Source of the DNA: Candidatus Anstonellales archaeon | GTDB taxonomy: Archaea; Micrarchaeota; Micrarchaeia; Anstonellales; CG1-02-47-40 | Direction: 5' to 3' | Length of the DNA: 64,000 nucleotides | NCBI GenBank assembly: GCA_038869735.1 | Contig: JAWCQO010000001.1 | Coordinates: forward strand, 72,684-136,683 | Shown: positions 1,727-64,000 of the stretch, in pieces | Layout: every line of letters begins with the position of its first letter | Numbering within the stretch: position 1 is the stretch's first letter | The notes under the pieces: generated by a model | What the model saw: the letters and a program-made list of their open reading frames with translations, nothing else | Databases searched by the model: none | What the model was told of the DNA's origin: nothing | Position numbers and translations under genes: made by a program

Positions 1727-1880
1727 TCCCGCCAGTGTGATTTATTCTACATAGGGCCAAAGTTTCATCCTTAGTTTGTTTTGCCTTTATGTTATTGAAC
1801 ACACAACATTCTGGTTCCTGCTTTTGAAAAAGCAGTTACAAGCTACAGCCAGACGCTCTGCCAGATTGAGCTATGGCGGG
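1727..1880 (-). tRNA. tRNA-Tyr(GTA) with anticodon-loop intron and T-loop insert
   Basis: Read on the minus strand, the acceptor CCCGCCA (1880-1874) pairs with TGGCGGG (1734-1728), followed by discriminator A. C1-G72 is the archaeal tyrosine identity pair. The D-arm is GCTC/GAGC. The anticodon stem TCTGG/CCAGA encloses C-T-GTA-G, then a 27-nt intron between positions 37 and 38 that folds as CTGCTTTT/AAAAGCAG. The T-stem GTGTG/CACAC is split by a second insert of about 53 nt after TTCAA, with internal pairs CATA/TATG and GGC/GCC. Without both inserts a normal tRNA remains. A TATA element lies at 1907-1920. Confidence 0.9.
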
Positions 1881-1906
1881 ATTCCTACCTAAATTAAATG
1901 TGATAA

Positions 1907-1920
1907 CATATTTAAAAAAT
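1907..1920 (-). promoter_or_regulatory. TATA box for tRNA-Tyr
   Basis: On the minus strand this reads ATTTTTTAAATATG, centred about 33 bp upstream of the first tRNA-Tyr nucleotide. This is the usual position for an archaeal tRNA promoter. Confidence 0.5.
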
Positions 1921-2027
1921 AAACCTATAGGTTGAAGAAGTTACGGTTTCTTTTTGCTCTTGAAAGGATTAGTTCGTAAGAGGCAATAGAATTTAAATTT
2001 AGATAGTAAAATTATAAATCAGACATT

Positions 2028-2143
2028 GCCTCGGTGGTGTAGTGGTTAGCATTCTAGGCTGTCGATCTAGCGACCCGGGTTCAAAAAATGTTCAGCCTTC
2101 CTGAGAAAGGAGTAACGGATTTTTGAAAATCCCGGCCGAGGCG
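2028..2143 (+). tRNA. tRNA-Asp(GTC) with T-loop insert
   Basis: Acceptor GCCTCGG pairs with CCGAGGC and discriminator G follows. The anticodon stem CTAGG/TCTAG holds GTC at 2061-2063 with no intron there. The T-stem CCGGG (2075-2079) and CCCGG (2131-2135) are separated by TTCAAA, a 44-nt insert (about 2086-2129) and T60. The insert contains a CCTT/AAGG hairpin. Its last bases include TTGAA, complementary to TTCAA of the T-loop, just before the distal T-stem. Removing it restores TTCAAAT. The exact splice point is ambiguous by 1-3 nt because of flanking A runs. An AT-rich TATA-like element lies near 1990-2000. Confidence 0.9.
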
Positions 2144-2467
2144 TCGATTTCTTTTATTTTGGAGCGTTGAATAAGAATCAAGTGAAAAGGTTTAAGGTGG
2201 AATTAAGAATTTAAACGGCTCGTTCAGATATCTCTGCTCAAAGATTTTATCAGCAGATGCTTAGACGCCTTGCGTTTTTCTCAAATATTAGTTCCTTTGG
2301 CTGGAAATAAGGATTAACCATTCGTTCTACCAGATGGATAAAAAAAGCCTTAACTATTGCAACAAATAAGTAAACGGCTTAGGAGTGTAAACGGTCACAA
2401 GAAGTCGGTTTGATATCTAAAATGCTTTTTTAAAGATTGTTGATAATATTTTGTGTAGGTGGTGTAA
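2144..2467. other. Non-coding 324-bp gap between tRNA-Asp and a secreted-protein gene
   Basis: No convincing ORF is present on either strand. The visible structure is a TCTGCT/AGCAGA hairpin around 2236-2262, a CCAT/ATGG hairpin near 2318-2337, and three copies of TAAACGG (near 2212, 2371 and 2388). A TATA-like TTTTTTAAA near 2427-2436 could serve the gene starting at 2468. I found no box C/D pair, H/ACA pattern or tRNA arm. It could hold an unrecognised small RNA or a decayed gene. Confidence 0.4.
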
Positions 2468-3877
2468 TTGGTTTTTAAGAAATCATTTTTTGTTTTATTA
2501 GTTAGTATGATGTTTTTTGCAACATTATTTTCTTTTTCTATAAACGAATTTCTTGAAAAAAATACGGAACCTTCTGATTTAATCGAAAAAATTCCTCTTA
2601 TGAGTAATGAGTCCTCTCTTGTACTTATAAAAATAAATGGGAAAGAGACGTACATTTATTCTCAAGACATAGGCGGTGCGCTGGAATCTGTGGATGAAAT
2701 AAAAAAAGCACTTATTAATGATGCGTATCTAAAACGGGGTTATCAAGGCGTTGTTGGAAGGGCATTAAGTTCTCTGAGAAAGTTTAGAAGCGGAAAAGAG
2801 GATTTAGAAGGAAGATGCGATAGATATTTGGGGGTAGACAAAAAGCCATGTAAAGATAAAGAGAGTTGCTTGGTTGCTTGCTTTGCTGTTCCTCTCTGCA
2901 GTGGTGTAATTAATGCAAATGGGTTTTGGGAAGCGATGCTTGATTATACGCAAAAAAAAGACAGGTTGAACAATGAACTTTATGAAGCTGAAAAGATACT
3001 TGAAAACTTTGAGGAATCAAAACTTGAAGAACTCGTTTCAAGGCTCAACAACATCATTTCAATTTCAAGTAACTTGTCTCAGAATGGAATTTTTCTAAAC
3101 CGAACTGATCCTGGTTGCGATAGATTTGATTCCAGATGCTTTGAGTATTGTCCAAAAATAAATTACTCGACAGAAGAACTGGTAGCTTCAAAAAATGAGC
3201 TTGGAGCTTTGAGGGTCCTCTTCCTAAGCTCCGCAGAACAAGAGGAGAGGGCAGTAAAGATTGCACAAAAAACTGCCGAACAAAAGAAATATTTTGAAGA
3301 GAGGATAGAGAAGTTTTCTAAATTAAAAGATTCTGTATCGAAGAGGATTCAAAAAATAGTTAATGCATCAGATGAAATATTGAGAAATTTAACTTCACAA
3401 GAACTCGTAGATGGAAAGGCAAATCTCTCTGCAATAGGGGATGAGATTTTGGCTCTTGGTAGGGAGGGGGATTATAGGCAGGCATTTGGAAAGGAAGATG
3501 AGTTCGAAGCTCTTGCTTCCAACGTGGAAAGGAAAATAGAAGAGTTAAAGTTAAGGTATTCTAATCTAATTAAAAGATATGAGGAGATTTCAAAAAAGTA
3601 TGCTTCAGAGGCTAGGTTCATCGAACCTGGCTCAGAAATTGAGGAGTTGTACCTCTCAATATCCAAAAGCCTCTCTTCAAGAATAAACAACTCAGAGATA
3701 GATATGAAATTGGCGGATATTGATAACCTTGACGCAAAATTAAACAAGATTATTTCAGAGGCGGCATTATCGGGAAAAAGCGTTGAGGCAGGTCAAGTTA
3801 CTGGTAATTATTGTCCTCTTCCCATTGCTATTCTACTTTTAGGATTTGTTGGAGCATTGTATAGTCTCAGACGCTAA
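2468..3877 (+). CDS. Secreted, membrane-anchored coiled-coil protein of unknown function
   Basis: The 469-residue product starts with a signal-like helix (FFVLLVSMMFFATLFSFS). A Cys-rich stretch follows near residues 115-150 (CDRYLG, CKDKESC, ACFAVPLC), then long charged, probably coiled-coil segments. It ends in one transmembrane helix and a basic tail (IAILLLGFVGALYSLRR). This topology suggests a surface protein anchored at its C-terminus. No ATG is available at the right place; the TTG at 2468 is preceded by a GGTGGTG Shine-Dalgarno-like element. The family was not recognised. It stands alone before the serine cluster, 15 bp upstream of the aminotransferase. Confidence 0.65.
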   Translation: MVFKKSFFVLLVSMMFFATLFSFSINEFLEKNTEPSDLIEKIPLMSNESSLVLIKINGKETYIYSQDIGGALESVDEIKKALINDAYLKRGYQGVVGRALSSLRKFRSGKEDLEGRCDRYLGVDKKPCKDKESCLVACFAVPLCSGVINANGFWEAMLDYTQKKDRLNNELYEAEKILENFEESKLEELVSRLNNIISISSNLSQNGIFLNRTDPGCDRFDSRCFEYCPKINYSTEELVASKNELGALRVLFLSSAEQEERAVKIAQKTAEQKKYFEERIEKFSKLKDSVSKRIQKIVNASDEILRNLTSQELVDGKANLSAIGDEILALGREGDYRQAFGKEDEFEALASNVERKIEELKLRYSNLIKRYEEISKKYASEARFIEPGSEIEELYLSISKSLSSRINNSEIDMKLADIDNLDAKLNKIISEAALSGKSVEAGQVTGNYCPLPIAILLLGFVGALYSLRR

Positions 3878-3892
3878 CGGTGATGCGAAGGT

Positions 3893-4960
3893 ATGAGCGA
3901 ACCACTTCTCCTTACTCCTGGTCCAGTGTGGTTGCACCCAAAAATAAGAGAAGCAATGTCAAAACAGATAATATACCATAGAGGAAGAGAGATAGAAGAA
4001 CTGATAAGTGGTCTTGTTAGTTACATTAAGAAAAACATGAACTGCCAAGATGCCTTTGTGCTTACTGGCTCTGGAACTACCGGTTGGGAATTTGCGTTTG
4101 CGAATTTGTGCAAAAAAGACGAGAAGATACTCTGCCTCTCAAACGGACATTTTGGGGAGAAGCTTGCAAAAGCTGCAAGTTATTTCGGAAATGTGATTGG
4201 ATATAACCTAGAAGCAAACAAAGGATGGAGTTTGGAAAGAGCAAAGGAGAAGATTGATGAAGCTTCTGACGCAACTCTTTTTGCGATGGTTTATAATGAG
4301 ACAAGCACAGGTGTTGCAAATCACGCAAAGGATGTCTTCTCTTATGCAAAAAATAAAGGGATGATTACTATATGCGATGCTATATCTGCTTGGGGAGCAA
4401 TGGAACTTGACATGCAGTCCTTTGGCATAGATTTCTGCATAAGTGCTTCCCAAAAGGCACTTGGAGCTTCGCCTGGACTTGCAATTGTAGGAGTCTCTCA
4501 GGAAGCCATGGAAAGGGCGCTTTCAAACAAAAGTACCTCATATTACCTTGATATGAAGATACATGCAGAGAATATGAAAAAATTTCAGACCCCTAATACG
4601 CCAGCAATAAGCTTAATGTATGGGTTGCAGGCTGCTTTTGAACTTTGTGAAGAAAGAGGAGGAATGAGCGCAAATATTGAGAGACACAGAAGAGGGGGGG
4701 AGATGGCAAGACGATTTGTAAAGGATATTGGATATGAGGTCTTTGCCGAAGAAGGATTTTATTCAAATACCATAACTGCATTTTTGCTTGAAAATGCGGA
4801 TGAGGTGAGACGAAAGTTATACGAAGAGAGGAATATCGTCACTGCGCGAGATTTTGGGGCTTATAGGGGAAGGTTATTTAGAATATGCCACATAGGAAAT
4901 TTCACAGAAGTGGATTTAGGGAAGGCGTTTGAAGCTATAAGAGAAATTTTAGGAAGATGA
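3893..4960 (+). CDS. Class V (AGXT-like) PLP aminotransferase
   Basis: The 355-residue protein has the alanine-glyoxylate/serine-pyruvate aminotransferase pattern: N-terminal LLTPGPVWLHP, the PLP-phosphate motif TGSGTTGWE (58-66), Asp162 in CDAISAWG, and the Schiff-base Lys188 in ISASQKALGASPG. It overlaps the start of a serA-like gene by 4 bp, which itself abuts serS, so serine metabolism is the likely context. In methanogens a broad-specificity class V enzyme acts as phosphoserine aminotransferase; by analogy this enzyme may convert 3-phosphohydroxypyruvate to phosphoserine. A serine-glyoxylate or alanine-glyoxylate role cannot be excluded from sequence. Confidence 0.85.
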   Translation: MSEPLLLTPGPVWLHPKIREAMSKQIIYHRGREIEELISGLVSYIKKNMNCQDAFVLTGSGTTGWEFAFANLCKKDEKILCLSNGHFGEKLAKAASYFGNVIGYNLEANKGWSLERAKEKIDEASDATLFAMVYNETSTGVANHAKDVFSYAKNKGMITICDAISAWGAMELDMQSFGIDFCISASQKALGASPGLAIVGVSQEAMERALSNKSTSYYLDMKIHAENMKKFQTPNTPAISLMYGLQAAFELCEERGGMSANIERHRRGGEMARRFVKDIGYEVFAEEGFYSNTITAFLLENADEVRRKLYEERNIVTARDFGAYRGRLFRICHIGNFTEVDLGKAFEAIREILGR

Positions 4961-5880
4961 TTACCACTTTAAAGTCTTTCTATTCTAATTTTAGTTATAT
5001 GCCGACTATAGTCGTTGCAGATGAAATGGAAGAAGATGTATTAGAAATGCTAAGTGGAGTTGGAAAAATAGTTTATAAACCATCCAACATTGGGGTTGCT
5101 TTAACTGATGCAGATGCGCTTGTTGTTAGGAGTGCTACACGAGTAACCAGAGAACTTGTAGAGAATTGCAAAAAACTAAAAGTAGTTGCACGGGCAGGGG
5201 TGGGACTTGATAATATTGACATAGAAAGTTGCGAGAAGAAAGGCATAAAGGTATTTAACACTCCCGGTTCCTCAACTGAAGCTGTCGCTGAACTTACAAT
5301 AGGATTGATGATTTGTGCTTGTAGAAACGTTGGCAAAGCACATTTTGGAATGAAAAATGGAAAGTGGGAAAAGAAAAAGCTAACCGGCTTTGAAATTGAA
5401 GGAAAAACTCTTGGAATAATAGGATATGGAAGAATTGGGAAAGCCGTAGCAGAAAAGGCTGTTGCTCTTGGGATGAGAGTGATTGCGTCTGACCCTACTG
5501 CAAAAAACGATGCTTATGCAAGAATAGTCTCTTTTCAGGAACTTTTGAAAGAGTCGGACATAATATCATTGCACTGTAACTTAACTGATGCAACAAAAGG
5601 AATGATAAATAAAGAGGCAATTGAAATGATGCGAAATGGAGTGGTGATATTAAACCTGGCCCGCGGCGAACTTATAAATGAAGATGCATTGTATGATGGA
5701 TGCAAATCTGGAAAAATTTATGCTGTCGCTCTTGACGTCTATTCAGCCGAACCTTATAAGGGGAAGTTACTAGAATTAGACAACATTATATTCACTCCCC
5801 ATATCGGAGCCTCTACTCAAGAAGCTCAAAAAAAAATTGGAGTAGAACTTGTGCATAAATTAAAGCAGGAGTTAGGGTAA
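4957..5880 (+). CDS. serA: D-3-phosphoglycerate dehydrogenase (short form)
   Basis: This is a 307-residue D-isomer-specific 2-hydroxyacid dehydrogenase. It shows the NAD-binding motif GIIGYGRIGKAVAEKA, the catalytic-domain signature NLARGELINEDAL, and the catalytic His in FTPHIGAST near the C-terminus. SerA catalyses the first step of serine synthesis from 3-phosphoglycerate. The C-terminal ACT regulatory domain of longer SerA enzymes is missing, so serine feedback control is not expected. ATG 4957 overlaps the aminotransferase stop (ATGA). An internal ATG at 4999 gives MPTIVVADEM, which is closer to the usual start of the family; neither has a good Shine-Dalgarno. Confidence 0.85.
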   Translation: MITTLKSFYSNFSYMPTIVVADEMEEDVLEMLSGVGKIVYKPSNIGVALTDADALVVRSATRVTRELVENCKKLKVVARAGVGLDNIDIESCEKKGIKVFNTPGSSTEAVAELTIGLMICACRNVGKAHFGMKNGKWEKKKLTGFEIEGKTLGIIGYGRIGKAVAEKAVALGMRVIASDPTAKNDAYARIVSFQELLKESDIISLHCNLTDATKGMINKEAIEMMRNGVVILNLARGELINEDALYDGCKSGKIYAVALDVYSAEPYKGKLLELDNIIFTPHIGASTQEAQKKIGVELVHKLKQELG

Positions 5881-5882
5881 AC

Positions 5883-7151
5883 ATGCCAACACTGAAGCAG
5901 ATTAGAGAAAACGCAGAAGAATTCTTTCAAGGACTGACAAAGAGGGGGATGGATACAGACATCATAAAAAAATTGCTTGAAATAGACAAACGATGGAGAA
6001 AAGAGAAGGCTGAGCTTGATTTGCTGAGAGCAAAGAAAAACGAATTTTCAAAAATGATTGCTCAAGCAAAGAGCAAGGGTGAAATAATAGAAAAAGAGCT
6101 TGAACTGATGAAGAAGAATTCTGAAGAGATAACTCAACTTGAAAGAGAGATTAGGACAATAGAATCAAAAATAGAGGAAATTTTACTTCTTATTCCGAAT
6201 ATGCCTCATAACAGCGTCCCTCTGGGAAATAGCTCTGAAGAAAATGTGGTTGTAAGGGAGGGACCTCAAAAACCAAAAAAGGATTCAAAAAGCGTTGTCC
6301 CACACTATGACTTACTCACAAAACATAGGCTTATCGACTTTGAAAGAGGAGCAAAGTTAGCTGGACACCGGTTTGCTTTTCTTAGAGGGAAGATAGCGCG
6401 TCTGGAAAGGGCTCTTTCTAATTTTATGGTGGAATGTGCAGTTGGCAGAGGATACACTGAGTATTGGGTTCCATATCTTGTTGGAAAAAAAGCAATGATT
6501 GGAAGTGGACACCTTCCAAAGTTTTCTAAGGAAGTTTATAAGTGTAGCGAAGATGAGCTTTATCTCATTCCCACGGCAGAAGTACCACTTGTCAATCTCT
6601 TTGCCGATGAAATTTTAGATGAAGAGGATTTGCCAGTTAAGATATGCGCATTTAGTCCATGTTTCAGAAGAGAAGCGGGAGAGTACCAAAAGGACATAAA
6701 AGGTTTCATTCGCCAACACCAGTTTGACAAGGTTGAGTTAGTAAAATTCTGCTTGCCGGATGAATCTTACAAGGAATTAGAAAGCATGGTGAAAGATGCT
6801 GAGTCTGTTTTGCAAAGGCTCGGATTACCTTATAGAGTTGTTGAGCTTTGTACCGGCGATTTAGGCTTTGCATCTGCAAAAACTTATGATTTGGAAGTTT
6901 GGATTCCGTCTCAGGACAAATATAGAGAGGTATCATCTTGTTCAAACTGCACTGACTTTCAGTCAATAAGAGCTAATATCAAGTTTTGGAGAAAGGGAAA
7001 GCCGGAATATGTTCACACTTTAAATGGAAGTGGAATTGCAGTTGGAAGGACGCTTGTTGCACTAGTCGAAAATTTTCAGGATGAGGATGGAATTGATATT
7101 CCAAAACCGTTGCAGGATTTTATGCAGTGCGAAAGAATAGAATGGGAATAA
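5883..7151 (+). CDS. serS: Seryl-tRNA synthetase
   Basis: The 422-residue protein begins with the long antiparallel coiled-coil arm of SerRS (about residues 30-110), which contacts the tRNA-Ser variable arm. A class II catalytic core follows, with motif 2 FRREAGEYQKDIKGFIRQH and motif 3 NGSGIAVGRTLVALVEN. It is the common (bacterial/archaeal) SerRS type, not the rare methanogen type. It lies 2 bp after serA, so serine synthesis and serine charging seem to be co-transcribed. The ATG at 5883 is the only sensible start. Confidence 0.95.
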   Translation: MPTLKQIRENAEEFFQGLTKRGMDTDIIKKLLEIDKRWRKEKAELDLLRAKKNEFSKMIAQAKSKGEIIEKELELMKKNSEEITQLEREIRTIESKIEEILLLIPNMPHNSVPLGNSSEENVVVREGPQKPKKDSKSVVPHYDLLTKHRLIDFERGAKLAGHRFAFLRGKIARLERALSNFMVECAVGRGYTEYWVPYLVGKKAMIGSGHLPKFSKEVYKCSEDELYLIPTAEVPLVNLFADEILDEEDLPVKICAFSPCFRREAGEYQKDIKGFIRQHQFDKVELVKFCLPDESYKELESMVKDAESVLQRLGLPYRVVELCTGDLGFASAKTYDLEVWIPSQDKYREVSSCSNCTDFQSIRANIKFWRKGKPEYVHTLNGSGIAVGRTLVALVENFQDEDGIDIPKPLQDFMQCERIEWE

Positions 7152-7167
7152 TTGGGTGCTTGGCCTT

Positions 7168-8463
7168 ATGAGCACAAAAGATAGGTGGTCGGGCAGTTTA
7201 GAGTTTATAATTGCTGCGATAGGTTCTGCTGTTGGTATCGGCAACATTTGGAGATTTCCATATATAATGGGACAGAATGGAATGTTGGCATTTTTAGTTC
7301 CATACACAGTCTGCTTGATTGTGATTGGAGTGCCACTGCTTATGCTTGAGATAGGAGCTGGGCTGTATTTTAGGGTCTCTTATTTAGAAGTTTTAAAGAA
7401 GATTGGGTTCCCCCAGAGCCTTGGAATTTTTACACTTTTGGTAGTGTTCTTTATTTTGAGCTATTACGTCGTTATTACAAGCTGGATGTTGTTTTATGCA
7501 TTCGGTTTTTTTACTGGTCTAGACGTGAATTTTGGGATTATATCAGGAAGTTATATATCTGTCCCATTTTTCCTTGCGACTATCTTTCTCCTTTACGTAG
7601 TGATGTCACTTGGAATAAAAAAAGGAATTGAGCCAGCTGTCATGGTGTTTGTTCCTATTCTCGCTTTGCTATTAGTGGTGATAACCGCATATATGTTGAT
7701 AATGATGCCTCAGACCATAGAGAAAACGCTTGAAAAAATTGAATTGGATATGGAATATTTTATGAGTCCTCGAACGTGGCTTTTTGCTTCTGCTCAAGTA
7801 GTATTTTCACTTTCGATAGGCATGGGATTGATGCTTACTTATGGTGCCTATGTAAAGGATAGATTAGACCTAAAAAAGTCTGCGCTGACGATATGTTTAG
7901 GAGACTTGACAGTATCACTTCTTTCAGTGTTTATAATATTTCCACTTGCATTCCTATCTGGTACTTCGATAGAAGAAGGAGCACTTTTATCAATGGAAGC
8001 GCTTCCAGTCATTTTTGGAATGATGCCGTTTGGTAAATTTGTGGGAGGTATTTTTTTTCTTCTTGTATTTATAGCAGCATTTACTTCGGCAATTTCCATG
8101 GCCGAGATGGGTATTCACTCGTTTGATAGTAAACTGAAACTTTCAAGACAGAAAGCGGTCGAGTATTTTCTTCTTGCACTTTTGTTAGTGAGTAGTGTAG
8201 TGCTATTGAGTTATTCGCCTCTCAACTTATCACTGTTTGGAAAACCTATCCTGGACTTATTTGATGTTATATTTGGCACAATGCTTTCGCCTTTGTCCGC
8301 ATTTTTAGTTTTGGTTGCGCTAGCTCATTATTGGGATATAAAAAGGTTCTTACTGCTGGCAGGAATAATGAATAGAACTCTGTCGAGAATACTTGAGTAT
8401 ATTCTAAAATGGGTCTCTCCGGCTATTCTTATACTGCTTTTTAGTTACGGGATTACTCATTAA
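7168..8463 (+). CDS. Sodium:neurotransmitter symporter (NSS/SNF) family transporter
   Basis: The product has the NSS hallmark near its start: RWSGSLEFIIAAIGSAVGIGNIWRFPY, with the unwound TM1 substrate and sodium site. About eleven hydrophobic helices follow. At about 431 residues it is close to the size of prokaryotic LeuT-like members. It probably imports amino acids with sodium. A GTG at 7156 in frame would add four residues; I prefer the ATG at 7168, which begins MSTKDRW and follows a GGGTG element. It follows serS by 16 bp, so it may belong to the serine operon, but the substrate is unknown. Confidence 0.9.
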   Translation: MSTKDRWSGSLEFIIAAIGSAVGIGNIWRFPYIMGQNGMLAFLVPYTVCLIVIGVPLLMLEIGAGLYFRVSYLEVLKKIGFPQSLGIFTLLVVFFILSYYVVITSWMLFYAFGFFTGLDVNFGIISGSYISVPFFLATIFLLYVVMSLGIKKGIEPAVMVFVPILALLLVVITAYMLIMMPQTIEKTLEKIELDMEYFMSPRTWLFASAQVVFSLSIGMGLMLTYGAYVKDRLDLKKSALTICLGDLTVSLLSVFIIFPLAFLSGTSIEEGALLSMEALPVIFGMMPFGKFVGGIFFLLVFIAAFTSAISMAEMGIHSFDSKLKLSRQKAVEYFLLALLLVSSVVLLSYSPLNLSLFGKPILDLFDVIFGTMLSPLSAFLVLVALAHYWDIKRFLLLAGIMNRTLSRILEYILKWVSPAILILLFSYGITH

Positions 8464-9394: not shown

Positions 9395-9408
9395 GCACCC
9401 ATCACCCT

Positions 9409-10830: not shown

Positions 10831-10902
10831 GAAAAAATATTGGAAAGAGAAAATATAAAGCTGATTGAGTTAAGGATATAGTTGTTGCCTTGAAACGGGG
10901 TG

Positions 10903-15087: not shown

Positions 15088-15150
15088 TCCTTTTCACCAG
15101 AGCACCGTTATGATTTGAAAAAAATAAAATTAAATATGATTGCAAAGACC

Positions 15151-18277: not shown

Positions 18278-18414
18278 GCAGGGGTGGCGGAGCCTGGTCA
18301 AACGCGTCAGACTCAAGACCAAACAGAGTTCGTGCGACATCTGATGGCTTAGGCCTTCGCAGGTTCGAATCAGTTTTCCAAAAAGACTTTCCAAAGAGAA
18401 TCCTGCCCCCTGCA
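18278..18414 (+). tRNA. tRNA-Leu(CAA) with anticodon-loop intron and T-loop insert
   Basis: Acceptor GCAGGGG pairs with CCCCTGC, discriminator A at 18414. The anticodon stem TCAGA/TCTGA carries C-T-CAA-G (CAA at 18314-18316). A 21-nt intron (18318-18338) sits at the canonical 37/38 site. A long variable arm follows, as in class II tRNAs. The T-stem GCAGG (18359-18363) and CCTGC (18402-18406) are separated by TTCGAA, a 31-nt insert (about 18370-18400) and T60. After removing both inserts a standard tRNA-Leu remains. It lies divergent to the CoA-binding gene. Confidence 0.9.
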
Positions 18415-43763: not shown

Positions 43764-43878
43764 GCTGAGGTCGCATAGCCTGGTTAGTGCGCTGGATTGC
43801 TAATCCAGTGTCGAAAGACGCGCAGGTTCAAAGCAAAAAAATGTATCAAGCTTCGTGGGGAAAATCCTGCCCTCAGCG
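43764..43878 (+). tRNA. tRNA-Ser(GCT) with T-loop insert
   Basis: Acceptor GCTGAGG pairs with CCTCAGC, discriminator G. The anticodon stem CTGGA/TCCAG holds TT-GCT-AA (GCT at 43799-43801) with no intron. A long variable arm follows (GTGTCGAAAGACGC). The T-stem GCAGG (43822-43826) and CCTGC (43866-43870) are separated by TTCAAA, a 32-nt insert (about 43833-43864) and T60. The last bases before the T-stem are GAAAAT, in which GAA can pair with TTC of the T-loop. Removing the insert restores a standard class II tRNA. Confidence 0.92.
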
Positions 43879-43946
43879 TTTTTTATTGTTTTTATAGTTT
43901 CTACTTTCTTCGGAAATTAGGAGAGTATTGAGAAGGATTAGAGAAT

Positions 43947-44212
43947 GGGAGGGTCCGGTATTGCCGAACGCACAAGTAGGGGTTGTTTGGGCCCGTGCTC
44001 CGCCTTGGCTCCTCCAAGCACAAATACAAAAATCTTAGGGCTGCTCCTTCCGGCCTGACCCGGTTCGATTTTTGCTTCGCCCTGCAGGTCAAGACATCTA
44101 CGCACTAGAGCCCAAGCCGCCTGACTTGGGCGAAAGCGACGCAACCGGATTTTCGGTCCTGCCTTGAGGGGACATGCAGTTACAAGGGACCCCTAGCCCC
44201 CCGACCTATCCC
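43947..44212 (-). ncRNA. Signal recognition particle RNA (archaeal 7S type)
   Basis: On the minus strand the conserved SRP helix 8 is clear: GGTCAGGCCGGAAGGAGCAG followed by CCCTAAG. The 5' GGGATAGGTCGG and the 3' CCGGACCCTCCC can pair with small bulges as helix 1, which sets the approximate ends. The stretch GCCCAAGTCAGGCGGCTTGGGC fits helix 5/6-type pairing. Length of about 266 nt fits archaeal SRP RNA. The ends are estimates. The gene is antiparallel to ftsZ and tRNA-Ser. Confidence 0.88.
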
Positions 44213-44342
44213 ATAAATTTAGGGATTATTTCATTTATAAGATTTCGTTATTATGGCTTTTTCAAATAAACAAAAACAGGATTACCCAAAAAGTTATATA
44301 TAAGAGGTGATTAAGGATGTTTAGGCGTTGATAGGAAGGGTG

Positions 44343-49570: not shown

Positions 49571-49677
49571 GGCCACGGTGGTGTAGCTAGGCAGCACAGG
49601 GGACTGTGGATCCCCGGGCCCGAGTTCAAACTAACGCCAATTAACGGCGCTATAAAGAACAAATCTCGGCTGTGGCC
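49571..49677 (+). tRNA. tRNA-His(GTG) with T-loop insert
   Basis: Acceptor GCCACGG pairs with CTGTGGC. An encoded G at position -1 (49571) faces C73 (49677), the histidine identity pair. The anticodon stem GGGGA/TCCCC encloses CT-GTG-GA (GTG at 49606-49608), no intron. The T-stem CCGAG (49620-49624) and CTCGG (49665-49669) are split by TTCAAA, a 33-nt insert (about 49631-49663) and T60. The insert has a CGCC/GGCG hairpin and ends GAACAAA, in which GAA can pair with TTC of the T-loop. Confidence 0.92.
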
Positions 49678-51327: not shown

Positions 51328-51384
51328 TTTAAAATTGATGATTAGTTAAATTATAAATATTTACATTGCTAAAAAGAAGGGGAG

Positions 51385-53169: not shown

Positions 53170-53174
53170 AAGAA

Positions 53175-54317: not shown

Positions 54318-54331
54318 TTAAATACCTCAGA

Positions 54332-56884: not shown

Positions 56885-56910
56885 CAGCCCAAGTTTAAAA
56901 TTAAATCAAC

Positions 56911-57648
56911 TCATTCCTTGATTGCGAGGTAGCCTTCCAATACAAGCCTGTTTAACACTGCCTCTACCCGACTTTCTGGAACGCCGTAAGTTTTTGAAAA
57001 TTCAGTTATGTTTATCTCTGAGTTGTGTTCGTGAATCCAATTTTGTATTTTTGATGCAAGAACTTCGTCAGAAATGGACTGGAACTCTGCAAGCTTATTT
57101 GCAAGCTCATCTTTTGACACTTTTAGTTCATAGTTTTCCCGCGAAAGGAGAGTATTTGCCTCCTGTAGGTCTCGAACTCTCTTTTGAAGAGAAATAACCT
57201 CTGATTTTAGGCTGTCGTAGAGAGAGTAGAGTTTATCGTAATCGCTAGTAACGTATTCCTCCATTTCAGATAGAGCATTTTCCAGCATTTGGTATATCTT
57301 TCGATTGTCAATGCTATAGTTGGATCCCAACAGCGTAAGAAGATTGAGGAGATACTTTAACATATCAAGTTTTCTTTTTTTTGGACTCATTCCGGCTGTA
57401 TAGGTGTAGAGAAGCTCTATTTTGTCTGGATGGAAGTAGGTTAGTGAAAACAAGAATGGGTTTTTGTGGATATCTCTACTCTCGACGTTTATTCCAATGA
57501 TGGTTTCGTTTTCTTCTACCAACTTTAAAAACGAAAGTTGAGAAAGTGATTCAAAAACGTCTTTTTTGCTGCCTACCCTTGAAGCCTCTAAGAATATTCC
57601 GCTAACCTTTGGCGGAGTCGTTGCTTTTTGCTGTTTTTGTGGAGGCAG
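56911..57648 (-). CDS. Coiled-coil protein with C-terminal helix-turn-helix; start unusual
   Basis: The frame has a coiled coil (about residues 125-175 of the longer form) and a C-terminal winged-helix-like end (NITEFSKTYGVPESRVEAVLNRLVLEGYLA). The first standard start is TTG at 57522, giving 203 residues. The same frame is open and protein-like upstream (IFLEASRVGSKKDVFESL) back to the upstream stop, with GGTGA six bases before a CTG at 57648, giving 245 residues. No ATG or GTG occurs in between. I list the longer form; the start is uncertain. Confidence 0.5.
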   Translation of the reverse strand: MPPQKQQKATTPPKVSGIFLEASRVGSKKDVFESLSQLSFLKLVEENETIIGINVESRDIHKNPFLFSLTYFHPDKIELLYTYTAGMSPKKRKLDMLKYLLNLLTLLGSNYSIDNRKIYQMLENALSEMEEYVTSDYDKLYSLYDSLKSEVISLQKRVRDLQEANTLLSRENYELKVSKDELANKLAEFQSISDEVLASKIQNWIHEHNSEINITEFSKTYGVPESRVEAVLNRLVLEGYLAIKE

Positions 57649-57654
57649 ATGATA

Positions 57655-58119
57655 TCACCTTTTTTTCTTTTTGATTTTTTTTGATTTAGATTTAGTGGCA
57701 AGAATGGCTTGTTTAGACGTCTTTTTCTCTAAAGAAGGCTGCTCAGACAGAGACGGCGGTGGTTGAGGAGTCTCTTCAATTGCAGGAACGTATGAGGTAA
57801 GAGAAAACAGCACAAGAAAAGCTCCGATGAAGATAGATATAATAAAAGTTCCGAGGGACAGTGTCCCGCTAAGAAGAGAGAGACCAACAAAGGCAATGAA
57901 GATGATGACTGCAAGGGCAATGTACTGAACCAGTGTCTTTTCAAATTTAGTCCTTCTTTTCTTATATTCTTCATACATCTCTTCGCTCACAATAAGTCTG
58001 TTATTTTTTGCGATTCCAAAAAAACGCTTTATTTTTCTTATTGAGCGTATCACTATGTCTTCCTTGACTGGATAGCCAACGCCTTCATTTCCTGACATTA
58101 TGCAAATCCCTCTTTCCAT
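57655..58119 (-). CDS. Small membrane protein of the VirB4-like cluster
   Basis: The 154-residue protein has a basic cytoplasmic N-terminus, one or two membrane helices (YIALAVIIFIAFVGLSLL and LGTFIISIFIGAFLVLFSL), then a proline-rich and lysine-rich tail ending KSKKIKKKKR. ATG 58119 follows GAGGTG; an internal ATG at 58098 is possible. It could be a scaffold or coupling protein. The family was not recognised. Confidence 0.6.
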   Translation of the reverse strand: MERGICIMSGNEGVGYPVKEDIVIRSIRKIKRFFGIAKNNRLIVSEEMYEEYKKRRTKFEKTLVQYIALAVIIFIAFVGLSLLSGTLSLGTFIISIFIGAFLVLFSLTSYVPAIEETPQPPPSLSEQPSLEKKTSKQAILATKSKSKKIKKKKR

Positions 58120-58146
58120 ATCTCAAAACACCTCTTTTATGTGTGT

Positions 58147-59721
58147 CTACTCCTCCAATATAACTTGGGTTATATCTCGTCCAGTCATCCCAAGTTTTTT
58201 GAAATCTGTTTTGGAGAATATATTTATTATAGTTAAGTCGTCGATTCCCATATCTTTGAGAAGGGAAGTTATATTATTTCTTCCAAGGCCGTAGCGTTCA
58301 AGAAGGATAACAAATGAGATCACATCAAGATGGTTGTTTTTCTTTGAAAATAAAGAGACTATTTCTTCTATATGAACTGTGTCGAGGCCAAAAGACAGCA
58401 ACTTCTTTTTTAATTCTCCTCTCTCAAATGAGACTACTTTAGCCATAAGCTCATCCCTCCGTTCCTCCTCTGAAAGAGCAGAAGAGAGATCCAAGAAAAG
58501 CTCTTGCAGAGGTTCTTCACCGTCAACGCGCTCCATTATAAATGTCTCTGAAAACTGCATTGTTGTCTGAAAAGCCATATTTACTGCGCAGGACCCAAGC
58601 CCCAGCTTTGCAATCTCATCTCTCATAAAATCCGAAAAATTGAGAGTGTTTTGCAGATAGTTCAAAAAGCGCTCAAATTTCACTCTAAAAATAAATGTGG
58701 TCCCAACGTTTGAGAAGATTGCTTCTGAGATATCTGTAGGATTTTGTGAAGCAACAATAAGCCCAAACTGGTATTTTCTTCCTTCCCGGACAATCATAAC
58801 TGCATCTGAATTATCGTCCTTTGCAATTTTCCATGCTTCATCAAGCACAACCAAAAGACGCAGGCCAGCCGTTGAGCTCCAACCTGACTCACGCATCTTT
58901 TCCTTTATGAACTGGAGCATAGATAGAGCAGCTAAGCCTCTGAAGACTTCATCAGGGAGTCCAGATAGGTCCAAATCTACAAGACCAGCATTTAAAAGTT
59001 GCTCTAAGTTAACGGTTGATTGTTGTGCAAAATAATCTTCGCCTTCGCGAGTAAACTGCTTTATTCGATAGATTGCATTTTCAAGTTCTGCCGGAAATTC
59101 GTATGTTCCTGCTGCAAGCTGATCTTCAAGGATGTGTTGTACATCCCGCAATGTTGGCGGTTGAAGTGGGCGACCTGCACGGTCACGCTGGACTTTTCTA
59201 TCAAGCTTAAATCCAGCCTCAACATAAGCTTTTTCTATGGCATTTTCGGTAAGTCTTTTTTGTTCAGGGTAATGACTTATGTCTGTGAGTATCTCCAACG
59301 TTCGGATAATCTGTTTTATCCTATCATTTGGTTTCATTCCGCCCAAATCAAGGAGATTTATATAAGAGCCCTTGCCAAGTGAAATTACAATGCCGCCTGT
59401 TTGTTTTACCCACTCCTTGTATTCTCCTGCCCAGTCAATTATAAACGCATTGGTTCCCCAGACAAAGCTGGCTCGAGTTAGAAAAGTTTTTACAAAATAG
59501 CTTTTTCCAGAGCCGGTTATTCCAACCACACAGATATGTGGATTAGTGATTCGCTGGAATGTCCAATAAAAAGGAACGTGAAAAATCTTTGTTCTTCCTA
59601 TATAAATGGAATTTGTGGGGTCTGCCATGAGGTAATCCTCTGGCGGCTCTGGCGGCCTGACAAAAAAATTGCGCCTAGCTACATCGCGATTAAAGACGTG
59701 AGATAGTTTTAGCCTTCCCAT
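58147..59721 (-). CDS. VirB4/HerA-like ATPase
   Basis: This 524-residue ATPase has a short N-terminal strand region, Walker A GITGSGKSYF, a long ATPase domain, the Walker B strand LRLLVVLDEAWKIA, and the sensor-like VASQNPTDISEAIFSNVGTTFIFRV. These are the VirB4/TraC/HerA features; the preceding N-terminal domain of VirB4 is not part of it. The C-terminal 100 residues look helical and species-specific. The ATG at 59721 follows a GGTGGT element; a GTG at 59730 is the alternative. It begins 11 bp after the membrane partner gene. Confidence 0.85.
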   Translation of the reverse strand: MGRLKLSHVFNRDVARRNFFVRPPEPPEDYLMADPTNSIYIGRTKIFHVPFYWTFQRITNPHICVVGITGSGKSYFVKTFLTRASFVWGTNAFIIDWAGEYKEWVKQTGGIVISLGKGSYINLLDLGGMKPNDRIKQIIRTLEILTDISHYPEQKRLTENAIEKAYVEAGFKLDRKVQRDRAGRPLQPPTLRDVQHILEDQLAAGTYEFPAELENAIYRIKQFTREGEDYFAQQSTVNLEQLLNAGLVDLDLSGLPDEVFRGLAALSMLQFIKEKMRESGWSSTAGLRLLVVLDEAWKIAKDDNSDAVMIVREGRKYQFGLIVASQNPTDISEAIFSNVGTTFIFRVKFERFLNYLQNTLNFSDFMRDEIAKLGLGSCAVNMAFQTTMQFSETFIMERVDGEEPLQELFLDLSSALSEEERRDELMAKVVSFERGELKKKLLSFGLDTVHIEEIVSLFSKKNNHLDVISFVILLERYGLGRNNITSLLKDMGIDDLTIINIFSKTDFKKLGMTGRDITQVILEE

Positions 59722-59731
59722 TTTTACCACC

Positions 59732-60541
59732 TTATGAGAGGCGAGCCTCGAGCTCCTTTTCGTTGGGAGGTATCATGTACTCCCAATCAAAACATGTTTT
59801 CATTTCCTCTCCGGTTAGAACGATTACATCAACGTTTAGTGCGTTTGACACCGTAGCTCTTATTTCGTTTGCCTGAGATTTTACTGCAGCAAGTGCCGCT
59901 TCCTTTGAGACACCGGTTGCTGTTGTCATTACATAAGCTACGCACCCCATTGGCTTAATACCGCGTGTGAGTTTTGCTATTTGGTTTTCCCACATCGCAA
60001 CTTCGCGCTCGTAGCGGTCTATTTTGAGGATGTCAGGCTCAGGTTTGTCGCGTTCTCTGGAGAGTCTAAGCTGAGCCTCTGCATATTTCGTCTCCATTTT
60101 TTCGCGGAATTCGTTTAAATCTTTTAGATAGATAAGAAGGCAGAATTTGGTAACAAACCGCACTGAGGATATTGCCCGCTCAAAATATTCTGAGTAAATT
60201 ATGTTTTCTTCAGGTGTTTTGTCTGTTGTTGACTCGTAGATCCTGACTCCCAAGAACATGGATGCATAGTAAGTTGAGCCGACTTTTTTTAAGATAGCAT
60301 CCTGCTCTGGTGGGATTTCATAGCCTGTATCAGTTATCTGTACTATCCTTGCACCACTAGTCAAGAAAGGGAATAGAACGTAGCCATACTTGTAGAAAGC
60401 TATTGCACCTACCGCACCTAGACCGGCAAATATGCCTCCTATGAGGGAAAGAGGCCCTCCGCCTCCTGTGAATGCGCCTATAACTCCAAGCAATCCTATT
60501 AAAGCAGAACCGTATCCCATCTGCTTTGTATCAACTATCAT
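59732..60541 (-). CDS. Membrane partner with VirB3/PrgI-like hairpin and VirB4-N-like domain
   Basis: The 269-residue protein has two close membrane helices near its start (LIGLLGVIGAFTGGGG; FAGLGAVGAIAFYKYGYVLF). A cytoplasmic domain follows, with a charged helical hairpin (about 150-195) and the stretch VKSQANEIRATVSNALNVDVIVLTGEEM. That order, a small membrane hairpin followed by a VirB4 N-terminal-like domain, suggests a VirB3-VirB4N fusion whose ATPase half is the next gene. This is a visual judgement. ATG 60541 follows AAGGGGAT. Confidence 0.6.
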   Translation of the reverse strand: MIVDTKQMGYGSALIGLLGVIGAFTGGGGPLSLIGGIFAGLGAVGAIAFYKYGYVLFPFLTSGARIVQITDTGYEIPPEQDAILKKVGSTYYASMFLGVRIYESTTDKTPEENIIYSEYFERAISSVRFVTKFCLLIYLKDLNEFREKMETKYAEAQLRLSRERDKPEPDILKIDRYEREVAMWENQIAKLTRGIKPMGCVAYVMTTATGVSKEAALAAVKSQANEIRATVSNALNVDVIVLTGEEMKTCFDWEYMIPPNEKELEARLS

Positions 60542-60576
60542 ACTGATCCCCTTCAAAACTTACAAAGAGGCTATTT

Positions 60577-62295
60577 TTAAAGTTTATTAAGAGGGGAAAG
60601 ATTTTTTGGGTTTGCCTCTCTTAAAAAAAGCCAGATAAAAAGACCAGAAAGAGACACCGCAGATAAGAGCGATAGGTACAGCACAAGCCTTCCAAGTTGA
60701 TGGAGAGGGTTGTCTGTATTGTAGTTATCCCAGGCTAAGCGCTTATCTTTCCACCCCACAGGATAGAAATAGAAGACATGTAGATAGTCAATTGCAAGAA
60801 GCGAATAAGGTTCTAATCTTGCTGTTCCAACGTAAATGCGGTAATAGGGCGTCTCTTCCTTTTTTATCTCTCTAACAAGAGCAAGGTTGCTTTTTAAGCT
60901 GTTTATTTCTTTTTCATAGAGAGTTTTATCGGCCTTGCTTTCTCCCCATCCACAATCTCCCGGTACGCACTCTATAAGAACCATTTTTGCAAGTACATAA
61001 TTATTTGGGTCGCGAAGCTGGGGAAAATAATTAAGCTCTGCTGTCTCAAGATAGTGACGATCCATCAGAGCCCATGCTATTTTTCCTCTGTATATACGAG
61101 TATCTGCAATATAAAGAGTATTTTGAGGGGAATGCTTTTCAATTTCTTCTCTAAGTTCTAGTGTCGGATGCGACCTTTCATAATTAAGCACTATTACGTA
61201 AACGGAAAAGATCACAATCAAAAGAGAGATGGAGGGGAGAACTAGCGGCGATTTGATAAACCGAGAAATGGCACGCTCAGAAGCTAACACTGCTTCGGAG
61301 GCAAAAAAGGAAAGAAGCGGAGCAAAAACCGTAAAATTTTTTGGAAGGCCGGTCGACGCCAGAAGAAATATGAAGGGAAAAACAAAGCAAGAAGCCAAAA
61401 GCATGTGAAAATGAGTTGGCCTACGGATGAGCAATACTCCGAGACCTATAGTTCCTGCTAATAGGATTGCAGGGTCGTATTTGAAGAGGTGTTCAATGAC
61501 TACTCTTGAAAAGTGCTCTGGTAAAACCCCAATGTCAAACTCCGGCATGCCAAGGCCCTCATAGATACCCGGGTCAAGTCGAAAGAATCTTGTAAAGATT
61601 ATATCCATTTGTCCCTTCTCGTTGAACAGAAGAAAGTTGTATATTAGGAGAGGGGATATTAGGAGAATTAACAAAATCGCAGATAGAATCATATTTTTTG
61701 GTTCAAGAGCGAAGGTCTGGTTTTGGACTTTGCTTTTGTATATCCGCCAAACTAGAAAAGCTGCAGATACAAAACCAAATGCTAGCGCATATGACTTTAT
61801 CAGAGTAGCAATTCCCAGAGTTAGAGATGAAAGAAAAAGATATTTGGGTTCTGTGGTTTTTATCAGCTTCACGGAGAAATAGAGGAAAAGCAGGATGAAA
61901 AAACTGCATGTAAGTCCCATATCGCCTATTGTATACGAAATATGAAACCCTGAAAATGAGAGAAAGAGCGATGAAAGAATGGCCTGAGTGGGGGATGAAA
62001 ACTCCTTTATTAAAAGATAGAGAAGTGGGATTGATAGAAGGCCGTATACCAATGAAAGAAATCTGGAAGAAAGAATGGAAAGCCCAAAAATTTTATAGAC
62101 CAAGTCGGCCATATAAAAATAAAGCGGTGATTGGTCAATTGTAGAGATGTGATCGGAATTAAAGAAATTGTAAGGACGCACAGTATAGAGATTTTCGTCC
62201 CACCAAGGCTCAGTAGTATAAAGTGTATAAAGGCGAAGGCCAAGGGAGAGAACGAAGGCAAGAAAAAAGATGAAATAGTGAACGTTTCCTTTCAT
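60577..62295 (-). CDS. GT39-like membrane glycosyltransferase
   Basis: About 572 residues. It has the PMT/ArnT-like acidic motif PWWDEN in the first external loop, near the start, and about ten membrane helices, then a C-terminal external domain. GT39-like enzymes move sugars from polyprenyl phosphates to proteins or lipids. The frame extends upstream to 62382, but that would cross tRNA-Phe. The ATG at 62295 lies about 28 bp from a TATA-like box shared with that tRNA and has no leader, so I take it as the start. Confidence 0.85.
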   Translation of the reverse strand: MKGNVHYFIFFLAFVLSLGLRLYTLYTTEPWWDENLYTVRPYNFFNSDHISTIDQSPLYFYMADLVYKIFGLSILSSRFLSLVYGLLSIPLLYLLIKEFSSPTQAILSSLFLSFSGFHISYTIGDMGLTCSFFILLFLYFSVKLIKTTEPKYLFLSSLTLGIATLIKSYALAFGFVSAAFLVWRIYKSKVQNQTFALEPKNMILSAILLILLISPLLIYNFLLFNEKGQMDIIFTRFFRLDPGIYEGLGMPEFDIGVLPEHFSRVVIEHLFKYDPAILLAGTIGLGVLLIRRPTHFHMLLASCFVFPFIFLLASTGLPKNFTVFAPLLSFFASEAVLASERAISRFIKSPLVLPSISLLIVIFSVYVIVLNYERSHPTLELREEIEKHSPQNTLYIADTRIYRGKIAWALMDRHYLETAELNYFPQLRDPNNYVLAKMVLIECVPGDCGWGESKADKTLYEKEINSLKSNLALVREIKKEETPYYRIYVGTARLEPYSLLAIDYLHVFYFYPVGWKDKRLAWDNYNTDNPLHQLGRLVLYLSLLSAVSLSGLFIWLFLREANPKNLSPLNKL

Positions 62296-62316
62296 TGGAA
62301 AATGATTGGTAAGCAA

Positions 62317-62328
62317 GATTATTAAAAG
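62317..62328. promoter_or_regulatory. AT box between divergent tRNA-Phe and GT39-like gene
   Basis: GATTATTAAAAG is centred about 28 bp from the leftward ATG (62295) and about 32 bp from tRNA-Phe (62355). No other strong TATA element lies between them. Confidence 0.45.
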
Positions 62329-62354
62329 TAGTTTGAGAAAAGCAAAGATGTTCT

Positions 62355-62428
62355 GCCGCGTTAGCTCAGCCTGGGAGAGCATTCGGCTGAAGACCGAAGT
62401 GTCGCTGGTTCAAATCCGGCACGCGGCA
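62355..62428 (+). tRNA. tRNA-Phe(GAA), uninterrupted
   Basis: Acceptor GCCGCGT pairs with ACGCGGC, discriminator A. The anticodon stem TTCGG/CCGAA holds CT-GAA-GA (GAA at 62389-62391). The T-arm GCTGG-TTCAAAT-CCGGC is complete without insert and contains one G-T pair. No intron is present. Confidence 0.95.
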
Positions 62429-62477
62429 TATCAAACAATTAGGCATATTAAATTAGGAGTTTGTCTGCTCTTGCAAA

Positions 62478-62488
62478 GGTATAAATAG
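62478..62488 (+). promoter_or_regulatory. TATA box for tRNA-Gly(GCC)
   Basis: GGTATAAATAG lies about 33 bp upstream of the tRNA 5' end. Confidence 0.6.
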
Positions 62489-62515
62489 AATTTTGATGTT
62501 AGAAAATCAAAAAAA

Positions 62516-62589
62516 GCGACTATAGTCTAGCCTGGTTAGGACACGAGATTGCCAATCTCGAGAGCCGGGTTCAAATCCCGGTGGTCGCA
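62516..62589 (+). tRNA. tRNA-Gly(GCC), uninterrupted
   Basis: Acceptor GCGACTA pairs with TGGTCGC, discriminator A. The anticodon stem CGAGA/TCTCG encloses TT-GCC-AA (GCC at 62551-62553). The T-arm CCGGG-TTCAAAT-CCCGG is intact. Confidence 0.95.
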
Positions 62590-62624
62590 TAGATGCACAT
62601 AAATGCGTTATAGTTTATGAAGGT

Positions 62625-62698
62625 GCGACTGTCGTTCAACCTGGTTAGGATGCGAGCCTTCCAAGCTCATGATCCGGGTTCAAATCCCGGCAGTCGCA
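62625..62698 (+). tRNA. tRNA-Gly(TCC), uninterrupted
   Basis: Acceptor GCGACTG pairs with CAGTCGC, discriminator A. TCC lies at 62660-62662 in the loop CT-TCC-AA. The stem has GAGC/GCTC with a C-A mismatch at its base. The T-arm CCGGG-TTCAAAT-CCCGG is intact. Confidence 0.94.
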
Positions 62699-62755
62699 TT
62701 TAATCTTTGCGGCTATTTTATTAGATTGATAATGTTGGTTTGCTAGGTTGGTTTG

Positions 62756-63814
62756 TTAGGCGGAAGCAAGAAAATAGGCGCAAGAAAAGGTGTCTCCAAG
62801 ACCAACAGTTATGGCTGGATGTGAGATTTTAAGCGACGTCGCTTTTTGTGCGTATTTAAAGAGAGCTGTCCAAGTTGGGTTTTTGCCATATTTTGCTTTG
62901 TATGAGCAAACGATTCTTGCAAAAAGAAGAGCCAAATCGTCTCCCTGTTCTTTTGGAAATGTAAAGGAGGTAAACGGGGTGTGATAAAGAATTTTTACAA
63001 CGCTTTTTGGAAGTTTATTTATTGCTCCGATACCGTGTGTGTATGTAAGCTGAAAAAGCTCTTCATCGTTTAAACCCACGCAATAAGCAAAAGGAAAAGC
63101 ATACTTTTTTATTACTTCCATAACGGTTTTTTTCTGAAAGTCTCCAAGTTCAATGAAGATTTTGAGTTTCTTGTTTTTGGCTTTTAGAGATTTAAGAAAA
63201 TTGCATGCCTCCATCGCTTCATGTGCAGAGCTCATAAGGTGAAACCCTCCAACAAAAAGGTGTGAAAAATGTTGAGCTCCTGTGTGTAGGCTTTTTGAAG
63301 AAATAATAGGACAAGGGTCATAAGAGAAAATTATGCGATTTCTGACATCTGGACGCACGCAATATTCGAGAATGTAATGAATTGGAAACCTTTGAAGCTG
63401 GTTTTTTAGCTTATCTGCACGCACTGCCGATTTGCCACAAAGAGCATATATGAGTTTGGGATTAGAAAAAAAAGAAAAAAGGTGTTTGCTTGAACATGCG
63501 CAGATTATGTTGCATCTTGTTCCCAGAGAAGATGCAAGCTCAGCGGCCTGACCTGCTTGTCCCCCTATTTTAAGTGTTGGGTTGGGAAAGGCGTTTTGAA
63601 GACATAAAAGCTCTCGTTTTCCTATTTTTACCTCTCTCTGGATGCCTGACCTAATATCAAGAGAGAGGCGAGTATTTTTCTTGACAAAGGGCAGGTTTAG
63701 TATTTTGCTTGTGCTGGTATGCAATATTGCATCTAAGCAGACATTAAAGGCAAAGAAAGAGTTTTTGGGAAATGCTGCCTTTGCGCATGCTACGGCTTCA
63801 ACAAATTGTTGCAT
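62756..63814 (-). CDS. ADP-dependent sugar kinase (glucokinase/phosphofructokinase family)
   Basis: The protein has IGGQAGQAAELASSLG, FVGGFHLM, FIELGDFQ, and the catalytic GLGDTFS near the C-terminus, the pattern of archaeal ADP-dependent gluco- and phosphofructokinases. At about 352 residues it is roughly 100 shorter than classical members, mainly in the N-terminal lid region. The frame is open to 63928, across the divergent tRNA-Gly. The ATG at 63814 lies 26 bp from a TATA-like box, so I take it as the start. Substrate choice between glucose and fructose 6-phosphate is not clear. Confidence 0.8.
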   Translation of the reverse strand: MQQFVEAVACAKAAFPKNSFFAFNVCLDAILHTSTSKILNLPFVKKNTRLSLDIRSGIQREVKIGKRELLCLQNAFPNPTLKIGGQAGQAAELASSLGTRCNIICACSSKHLFSFFSNPKLIYALCGKSAVRADKLKNQLQRFPIHYILEYCVRPDVRNRIIFSYDPCPIISSKSLHTGAQHFSHLFVGGFHLMSSAHEAMEACNFLKSLKAKNKKLKIFIELGDFQKKTVMEVIKKYAFPFAYCVGLNDEELFQLTYTHGIGAINKLPKSVVKILYHTPFTSFTFPKEQGDDLALLFARIVCSYKAKYGKNPTWTALFKYAQKATSLKISHPAITVGLGDTFSCAYFLASA

Positions 63815-63832
63815 AGAAAAACGAACGCAGGG

Positions 63833-63848
63833 GTATTTTAAATAAATT
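63833..63848. promoter_or_regulatory. AT box between divergent sugar kinase and tRNA-Gly(CCC)
   Basis: GTATTTTAAATAAATT is centred 26 bp from the leftward ATG (63814) and about 30 bp from the tRNA (63871). It may serve both genes. Confidence 0.5.
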
Positions 63849-63870
63849 CGCATATAATCACTTTGATAGT

Positions 63871-64000
63871 GCATCCGTAGTCTAGCCTGGTAGGATCCGA
63901 GCTTCCCAAGAAACTCCGACAAAAACAAATAGTATGGATAGTTTGGGTTTTCGGAAGAAGCTTGAGACCCGGGTTCAAATGGAGTAAATTCTCCGGAAAT
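63871..64000 (+). tRNA. tRNA-Gly(CCC) with anticodon-loop intron and T-loop insert; cut by window edge
   Basis: The 5' part reads GCATCCG, D-arm, then anticodon stem CGAGC with CCC at 63905-63907. A 50-nt intron (63909-63958) sits at the 37/38 position; its ends CTCCGA/TCGGAA pair partly. The distal stem GCTTG pairs with CGAGC with a G-T pair. The T-stem starts CCGGG, then TTCAAA (63974-63979). Instead of T-CCCGG comes TGGAGTAAATTCTCCGGAAAT with a GGAG/CTCC hairpin, so a T-loop insert begins here. The rest lies beyond 64000. Confidence 0.82.

Follow-up and report, generated by a model that had tools for sequence, protein, structure and literature searches.

Inserts lie in the T-loop, at position 58/59 or 59/60, in 15 of the 43 tRNA genes of a micrarchaeotal genome. 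We consider it highly probable that these inserts are BHB-type introns, that they are cut by the single epsilon2 endonuclease of this organism with the tRNA halves being joined by RtcB, and that their fixed site reflects the near-invariant sequence GGTTCRA, which would make them portable across isotypes. Splicing itself, and the part of RtcB in it, we infer from the anatomy of the genes, from pairing statistics and from the type of the enzyme. The window, by which we mean the whole stretch of 64,000 nucleotides analysed (G000:C1:72684-136683), belongs to a metagenome-type assembly (G000) of a tiny, symbiont-type member of the Micrarchaeota comprising 884 kb in 15 contigs and estimated to be 97% complete.

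ARAGORN recognizes three and Rfam four of the nine tRNA genes in the window; used alone, the two miss most of these genes because the T-loop insert is not tolerated. Detection relied on a script permitting such an insert and then on R1, a covariance model derived from 21 tRNAs of G000 with five T-loop inserts set as insertion columns; both retrieved all nine genes, the model with E values from 3e-17 to 2.4e-3 (table 1). An earlier note made from the DNA letters had reported T-loop inserts in six of the nine, and all six proved real: the approximate lengths it gave (the last, for tRNA-Gly(CCC), as a minimum) are exact, the point of insertion at 58/59 or 59/60 is as it described, and the acceptor and T stems, which it considered intact wherever a gap was visible in full, are complete in all nine genes. 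It omitted the canonical 37/38 introns that the genes for Tyr, Leu(CAA) and Gly(CCC) carry as well. The tRNA-Gly(CCC) gene extends 13 nt beyond the end of the window and is complete in locus L140. An archaeal SRP RNA gene (window positions 43943-44216, minus strand) is convergent with tRNA-Ser(GCT), the two being about 65 bp apart, and a plasmid search with the Tyr/Asp locus as a query gave no match.

Table 1. tRNA genes and introns in the window (positions are those of the window).
Feature	Positions	Strand	Details	Standard tools reporting it
tRNA-Tyr(GTA) gene	1727..1880	-	two introns	
tRNA-Tyr T-loop intron	1741..1793	-	53 nt; 59/60 register; the 58/59 register gives a GTTC:GAAT central helix	
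tRNA-Tyr canonical intron	1816..1842	-	27 nt; 37/38	
tRNA-Asp(GTC) gene	2028..2143	+		
tRNA-Asp T-loop intron	2086..2129	+	44 nt; TTCA:TGAA central helix; strict BHB register	
tRNA-Leu(CAA) gene	18278..18414	+	two introns	
tRNA-Leu(CAA) canonical intron	18318..18338	+	21 nt; 37/38	
tRNA-Leu(CAA) T-loop intron	18370..18400	+	31 nt; relaxed, 3/4 pairs	
tRNA-Ser(GCT) gene	43764..43878	+		Rfam
tRNA-Ser(GCT) T-loop intron	43833..43864	+	32 nt; relaxed, 3/4 pairs	
tRNA-His(GTG) gene	49572..49677	+		
tRNA-His T-loop intron	49631..49663	+	33 nt; 59/60 register; the 58/59 register gives GTTC:GAAC, 4/4 pairs	
tRNA-Phe(GAA) gene	62355..62428	+	intronless comparison	ARAGORN, Rfam
tRNA-Gly(GCC) gene	62516..62589	+	intronless comparison	ARAGORN, Rfam
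tRNA-Gly(TCC) gene	62625..62698	+	intronless comparison	ARAGORN, Rfam
tRNA-Gly(CCC) gene	63871..64000	+	truncated by window end; full gene G000:C1:136554-136696	
tRNA-Gly(CCC) canonical intron	63909..63958	+	50 nt; 37/38	
tRNA-Gly(CCC) T-loop intron	63980..63999	+	20 nt; relaxed, 3/4 pairs	

The covariance-model search of the whole assembly recovered 43 tRNA genes, one per anticodon. Outside the window, T-loop inserts occur in the genes for Ser(CGA) (34 nt), iMet (32 nt), Thr(TGT) (36 nt), Leu(TAG) (83 nt), Ala(TGC) (38 nt), Ala(GGC) (34 nt), Val(TAC) (31 nt), Leu(GAG) (126 nt) and Arg(TCG) (47 nt), and excising any of the T-arm inserts of G000 yields a TTCRANY T-loop with intact stems and a canonical cloverleaf. 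The gene for tRNA-Pro(GGG) (L029:2843-3002, plus strand) is interrupted at 53/54 and at the rarely used site 32/33, and D-loop introns are found in Val(CAC) (L011:1341-1449, plus strand) and Gln(CTG) (L022:1501-1613, plus strand). Canonical and T-arm introns co-occur within one gene, seven of the 18 genes with a 37/38 intron having a T-loop intron as well. Altogether there are 37 introns in 28 genes, or about 0.86 per tRNA gene, and the T-arm, with 16 of the 19 introns located elsewhere than at 37/38, is the main non-canonical site. This density matches the Thermoproteales mean of 0.84 (PMC8450103) and is no record; the standout feature is the share of the T-arm. Of the earlier remark that the density and the single fixed site are unusual, the part concerning density and the bias towards one arm stands, whereas sites 53/54, 56/57 and 59/60 had already been catalogued in archaea (PMC4090602). 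Genes for tRNA-Cys and tRNA-Ser(GGA) were not recovered in G000, which may be due to assembly gaps or to heavier disruption of the two genes.

The T-arm, with a 5-bp stem and a 7-nt loop that would be cut after its sixth nucleotide, mirrors the geometry of the anticodon arm, in which the cut lies at 37/38. Outer helix h would be provided by the T-stem. In the 59/60 register, T54-T55-C56-R57 would pair with intron positions -6 to -3 (YGAA) to form the 4-bp helix H, and in the 58/59 register G53-C56 would pair with an intron 3' end reading GAAC. A58-A59 together with the first intron nucleotide would make up the 5' bulge, and two intron nucleotides with T60 the 3' bulge; these two 3-nt bulges would contain the sites at which the epsilon2 endonuclease excises the intron from the pre-tRNA, before RtcB joins the halves. 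The recurrence of the site probably comes from the GGTTCRA box, which hardly varies from one tRNA to another: an intron 3' end fitting one T-loop would fit all of them, so that introns could move between isotypes.

Pairing in this arrangement was evaluated by trying, for each insert, all registers that restore TTCRANY and scoring the best central helix, with a null obtained by sliding this computation along the intron in question. All four pairs are formed in 8 of 15 T-loop introns of G000 (2.0 expected), in 22 of 26 from G001 (3.2 expected), a genome of the same family but a different genus that is almost certainly CG1_02_47_40, and in 18 of 21 from other relatives (1.6 expected). The pooled figure is 48 of 62 against 6.8 expected, and a strictly Watson-Crick central helix is found 27 times against 0.85 expected. 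The 37/38 introns of G000, scored at a single register as a positive control, gave 10 of 14 against 0.3 expected. With the T-stem fixed, the minimum-energy (MFE) folds of iMet, Val(TAC) and Thr(TGT) are textbook hBHBh' structures (z = -5.0, -2.9 and -2.5, respectively), composed of the 5-bp stem, a 4-bp helix with a 3-nt bulge on either side, and a helix within the intron; in the folds of Asp and Ala(TGC) the four-pair helix is kept and the pairing extended. About half of the T-loop introns of G000 have an imperfect helix H (three of four pairs in six, two of four in Leu(GAG)) and would thus rely on relaxed recognition, and splice registers are ambiguous by 1-3 nt owing to runs of A. The inserts share with the archaeal BHB tRNA introns the restored cloverleaf and a 4-bp central helix with predicted cut sites in flanking bulges, those with an imperfect helix being of the relaxed kind.

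T-arm introns are even more prevalent in G001, where they interrupt 31 of the 37 recovered tRNA genes: about 10 at 56/57, 10 at 58/59, nine at 59/60 and two at 53/54, the registers having been assigned by the best central helix and in a few cases by eye. Those at 56/57 have GCCC or a similar sequence, followed by two bases, at their 3' end; it pairs with G51-T54, so that no outer helix h is formed. In tRNA-Ile(GAT), which has A52, the intron has GCTC rather than GCCC. The earlier note described the insert sequences as unrelated. This holds within G000, where none of 120 intron pairs scores above shuffled sequences and no intron families are apparent, but not in G001, in which 52 of 406 pairs exceed every shuffle and families are common to several isotypes. 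A module of the form CC(A)TA(T/A)GGGGGG-loop-CCCCCC...GGG-TTCA-CCCCCC can be aligned over eight genes (Thr(CGT), Arg(GCG), Leu(GAG), His, Arg(CCG), Gln(CTG), Asn and Thr(TGT)) and is also present in Tyr, Ser(CGA), Ser(TGA), Arg(TCT) and Cys, some copies residing in 37/38 introns. A second family, recognized by eye, comprises T-loop introns of Asp, Leu(TAG), Gly(TCC) and iMet and the D-loop intron of Val(GAC) (L170:1463-1617, plus strand). Introns have evidently spread between isotypes in G001, to judge from these similarities, with the act, the direction and the mechanism of this spread being inferred. G001 thus has similar introns across isotypes, as transposed introns do; those of G000 are not classed with this kind, as no pair rises above the null. 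They are too different to show a recent spread and may be older or independently gained. Between the two genera, only the 53/54 introns of tRNA-Pro(GGG) (in G001 at L157:1501-1611, minus strand) are more similar than the null, so orthologous T-loop introns appear to have been replaced or to have diverged beyond recognition.

The G001 module also occurs at three non-tRNA sites (L220, about 1433-1563; L231, about 1459-1585; and L225, about 1500), and every copy there follows directly on the 3' end of a protein gene, in antisense orientation to that gene. Direct duplications of the gene end, 38-39 nt long and 92-95% identical, flank two of these copies; such duplications were looked for at L225 and none were found. 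These copies lend some credit to the notion, compatible with the splicing model, that T-loop introns arise by site-specific DNA insertion of a spliceable mobile hairpin and not by RNA-level reverse splicing and recombination. However, the copies in at least 13 tRNA genes always lie in the tRNA sense within T-loop or anticodon-loop introns, as a splicing constraint predicts, and no flank duplication was noticed by eye at the tRNA copies; we regard DNA insertion as unlikely, though worth keeping in mind. With somewhat less than even confidence, we propose that Micrarchaeota host mobile intron families adapted to the T-arm, with portable 3' ends (YGAA at 59/60, GAAC at 58/59 and GCCC at 56/57), and that at least one of them is a small hairpin element also inserting outside tRNA genes. 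If true, the hairpin-element family would offer a visible route for tRNA intron gain; the mechanism of tRNA intron transposition has been described as unknown (PMC4090602).

Other named Micrarchaeota, as well as Aenigmatarchaeota (L112, L118 and L126), have T-loop introns too; these are common in G010 (eight of 16 sampled genes) and rare in the sampled genes of Ca. Fermentimicrarchaeum limneticum (G020). A survey of 59 genomes of the order with the pattern GGTTCRA...YGAANNTCY gave counts about equal to those of a reversed-pattern control and is given no weight as evidence. Some of its hits in G031 and G045, both of the same order, look like T-loop introns with (A)CCTAGGGGGAACA...CCGAAA or CCCATAAGGGGA...CCGAAA in common, which suggests further dispersed T-loop families in other genera.

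Is it conceivable that the inserts are retained, giving this lineage mature tRNAs with enlarged T-loops? We consider this very improbable. Pairing at the splice register is far above chance, and residue 57 covaries with intron position -6: among introns with GAA at -5 to -3, the combination is A-T in 12, G-C in four and G-T in two, with a single A-G mismatch. Intronless isotypes of the same genome have T-loops of strictly 7 nt, and the inserts of G000, 20-126 nt long, have no conserved sequence.

The enzymatic side of the splicing model is represented in G000 by a single PF01974 protein of 392 aa (L043:1459-2637) and by a gene for the RtcB ligase (G000:C1:47972-49276). The former aligns along its whole length with the structurally solved epsilon2 endonuclease of ARMAN-2 (4FZ2, 9W2K; E 1e-130) and, by this protein, the nearest named relative is Candidatus Micrarchaeota archaeon CG1_02_47_40 (76% identity). 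It has the epsilon2 hallmarks of three units in a single chain of about 390 aa and of a catalytic Tyr-His-Lys set with a Tyr-Lys pair in the loop: Y237/H252/K283 and Y161/K162, the equivalents of Y236/H251/K282 and Y160/K161, are invariant in an alignment with ten relatives and ARMAN-2. The epsilon2 specificity loop is reported to confer broad specificity, and species possessing it tend toward varied introns (PMC12397907); by analogy with the biochemistry of the relative, the G000 enzyme is probably a homodimer with broad cleavage specificity (PMC12397907). The link to ARMAN that the earlier note drew is borne out by the micrarchaeotal nature of the genome and by the sole endonuclease gene, which is of the epsilon2 (ARMAN-2) type. 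The same note envisaged a dedicated or a relaxed splicing activity. The strong focus on a single arm might speak for the former, that is, for a separate endonuclease or for self-splicing, yet only one PF01974 protein is encoded, the motif is an ordinary BHB, Rfam matches no insert to a self-splicing intron, and all are far too short for group I or II; this reading seems to us marginally less credible even than retention. The relaxed alternative is the one that fits: one broad-specificity epsilon2 enzyme would serve both arms, and no dedicated T-loop enzyme would be needed, since the T-arm combines anticodon-arm geometry with an invariant sequence.

Least probable of all is that intact copies serve the cell and that the interrupted ones are pseudogenes or remnants of insertions. 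In an assembly rated 97% complete, the genes for iMet, Asp, Tyr, His and the others are each single-copy; no stem is broken in any of them, the pattern recurs in relatives, and an intact copy would have to be hidden in an assembly gap for all 15 isotypes. The earlier note had named a second intact copy as what would mark these genes as pseudogenes; the covariance-model search of G000 found none for any interrupted anticodon. Together with the BHB statistics and the folds, this supports its reading of the inserts as probable functional introns at 58/59-59/60.

The original ARMAN-2 paper reportedly describes introns at various positions with no T-loop set. ARMAN-2 (Ca. Micrarchaeum acidiphilum; PMC6379350, PMC12397907) belongs to the same phylum and likewise combines non-canonical introns with an endonuclease bearing the specificity loop. 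Non-canonical introns at 53/54, 56/57 and 59/60 are known from Crenarchaeota and Nanoarchaeota (reviewed in PMC4090602) and resemble those described here in their sites, in their BHB or relaxed BHB motifs and in co-occurring with 37/38 introns; however, the catalogued ones are scattered over many positions, whereas here the T-arm accounts for 16 of 19 (G000) or is affected in 31 of 37 genes (G001). The transposed introns of Thermoproteales are similar in that very similar introns are found in unrelated isotypes, at high density and alongside a broad-specificity endonuclease, but the present case concerns a DPANN branch, another enzyme type, T-arm-centred families and a module that also occurs outside tRNA genes. 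In the Asgard lineages Atabeyarchaeia and Freyarchaeia, 92-95% of tRNA genes are interrupted, often non-canonically, and the available part of that report mentions neither a T-arm focus nor shared intron families (PMC11291895).

Each of several elements has been described before on its own: intron transposition, epsilon2 enzymes, relaxed motifs and the sites 53/54, 56/57 and 59/60. Within the available literature, the novelty lies in the T-arm specialization and how far it extends in this DPANN lineage, in the explanation by a shared box together with the statistics behind it, and in families reaching non-tRNA sites, although part of the T-loop observation may have been anticipated in the ARMAN-2 paper; our search for literature on Micrarchaeota and tRNA introns returned nothing on a T-arm focus. 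An invariant sequence combined with anticodon-arm geometry would provide a simple rule for the build-up of introns at one T-loop site, by making them portable, and the reach of intron transposition would come to include epsilon2-bearing DPANN archaea. With shared families in one sister genome and none in the other, intron gain can be studied here. On the practical side, standard finders overlook many tRNAs in such genomes, distorting tRNA-based estimates of completeness and codon analyses.

A separate peculiarity concerns tRNA-Thr(GGT), whose T-loop in both genera starts with TGC instead of TTC (TGCAATC and TGCAACT; L049:1434-1566, minus strand, and L163:1499-1625, plus strand), so that position 55, the site where pseudouridine is normally made, is a G.
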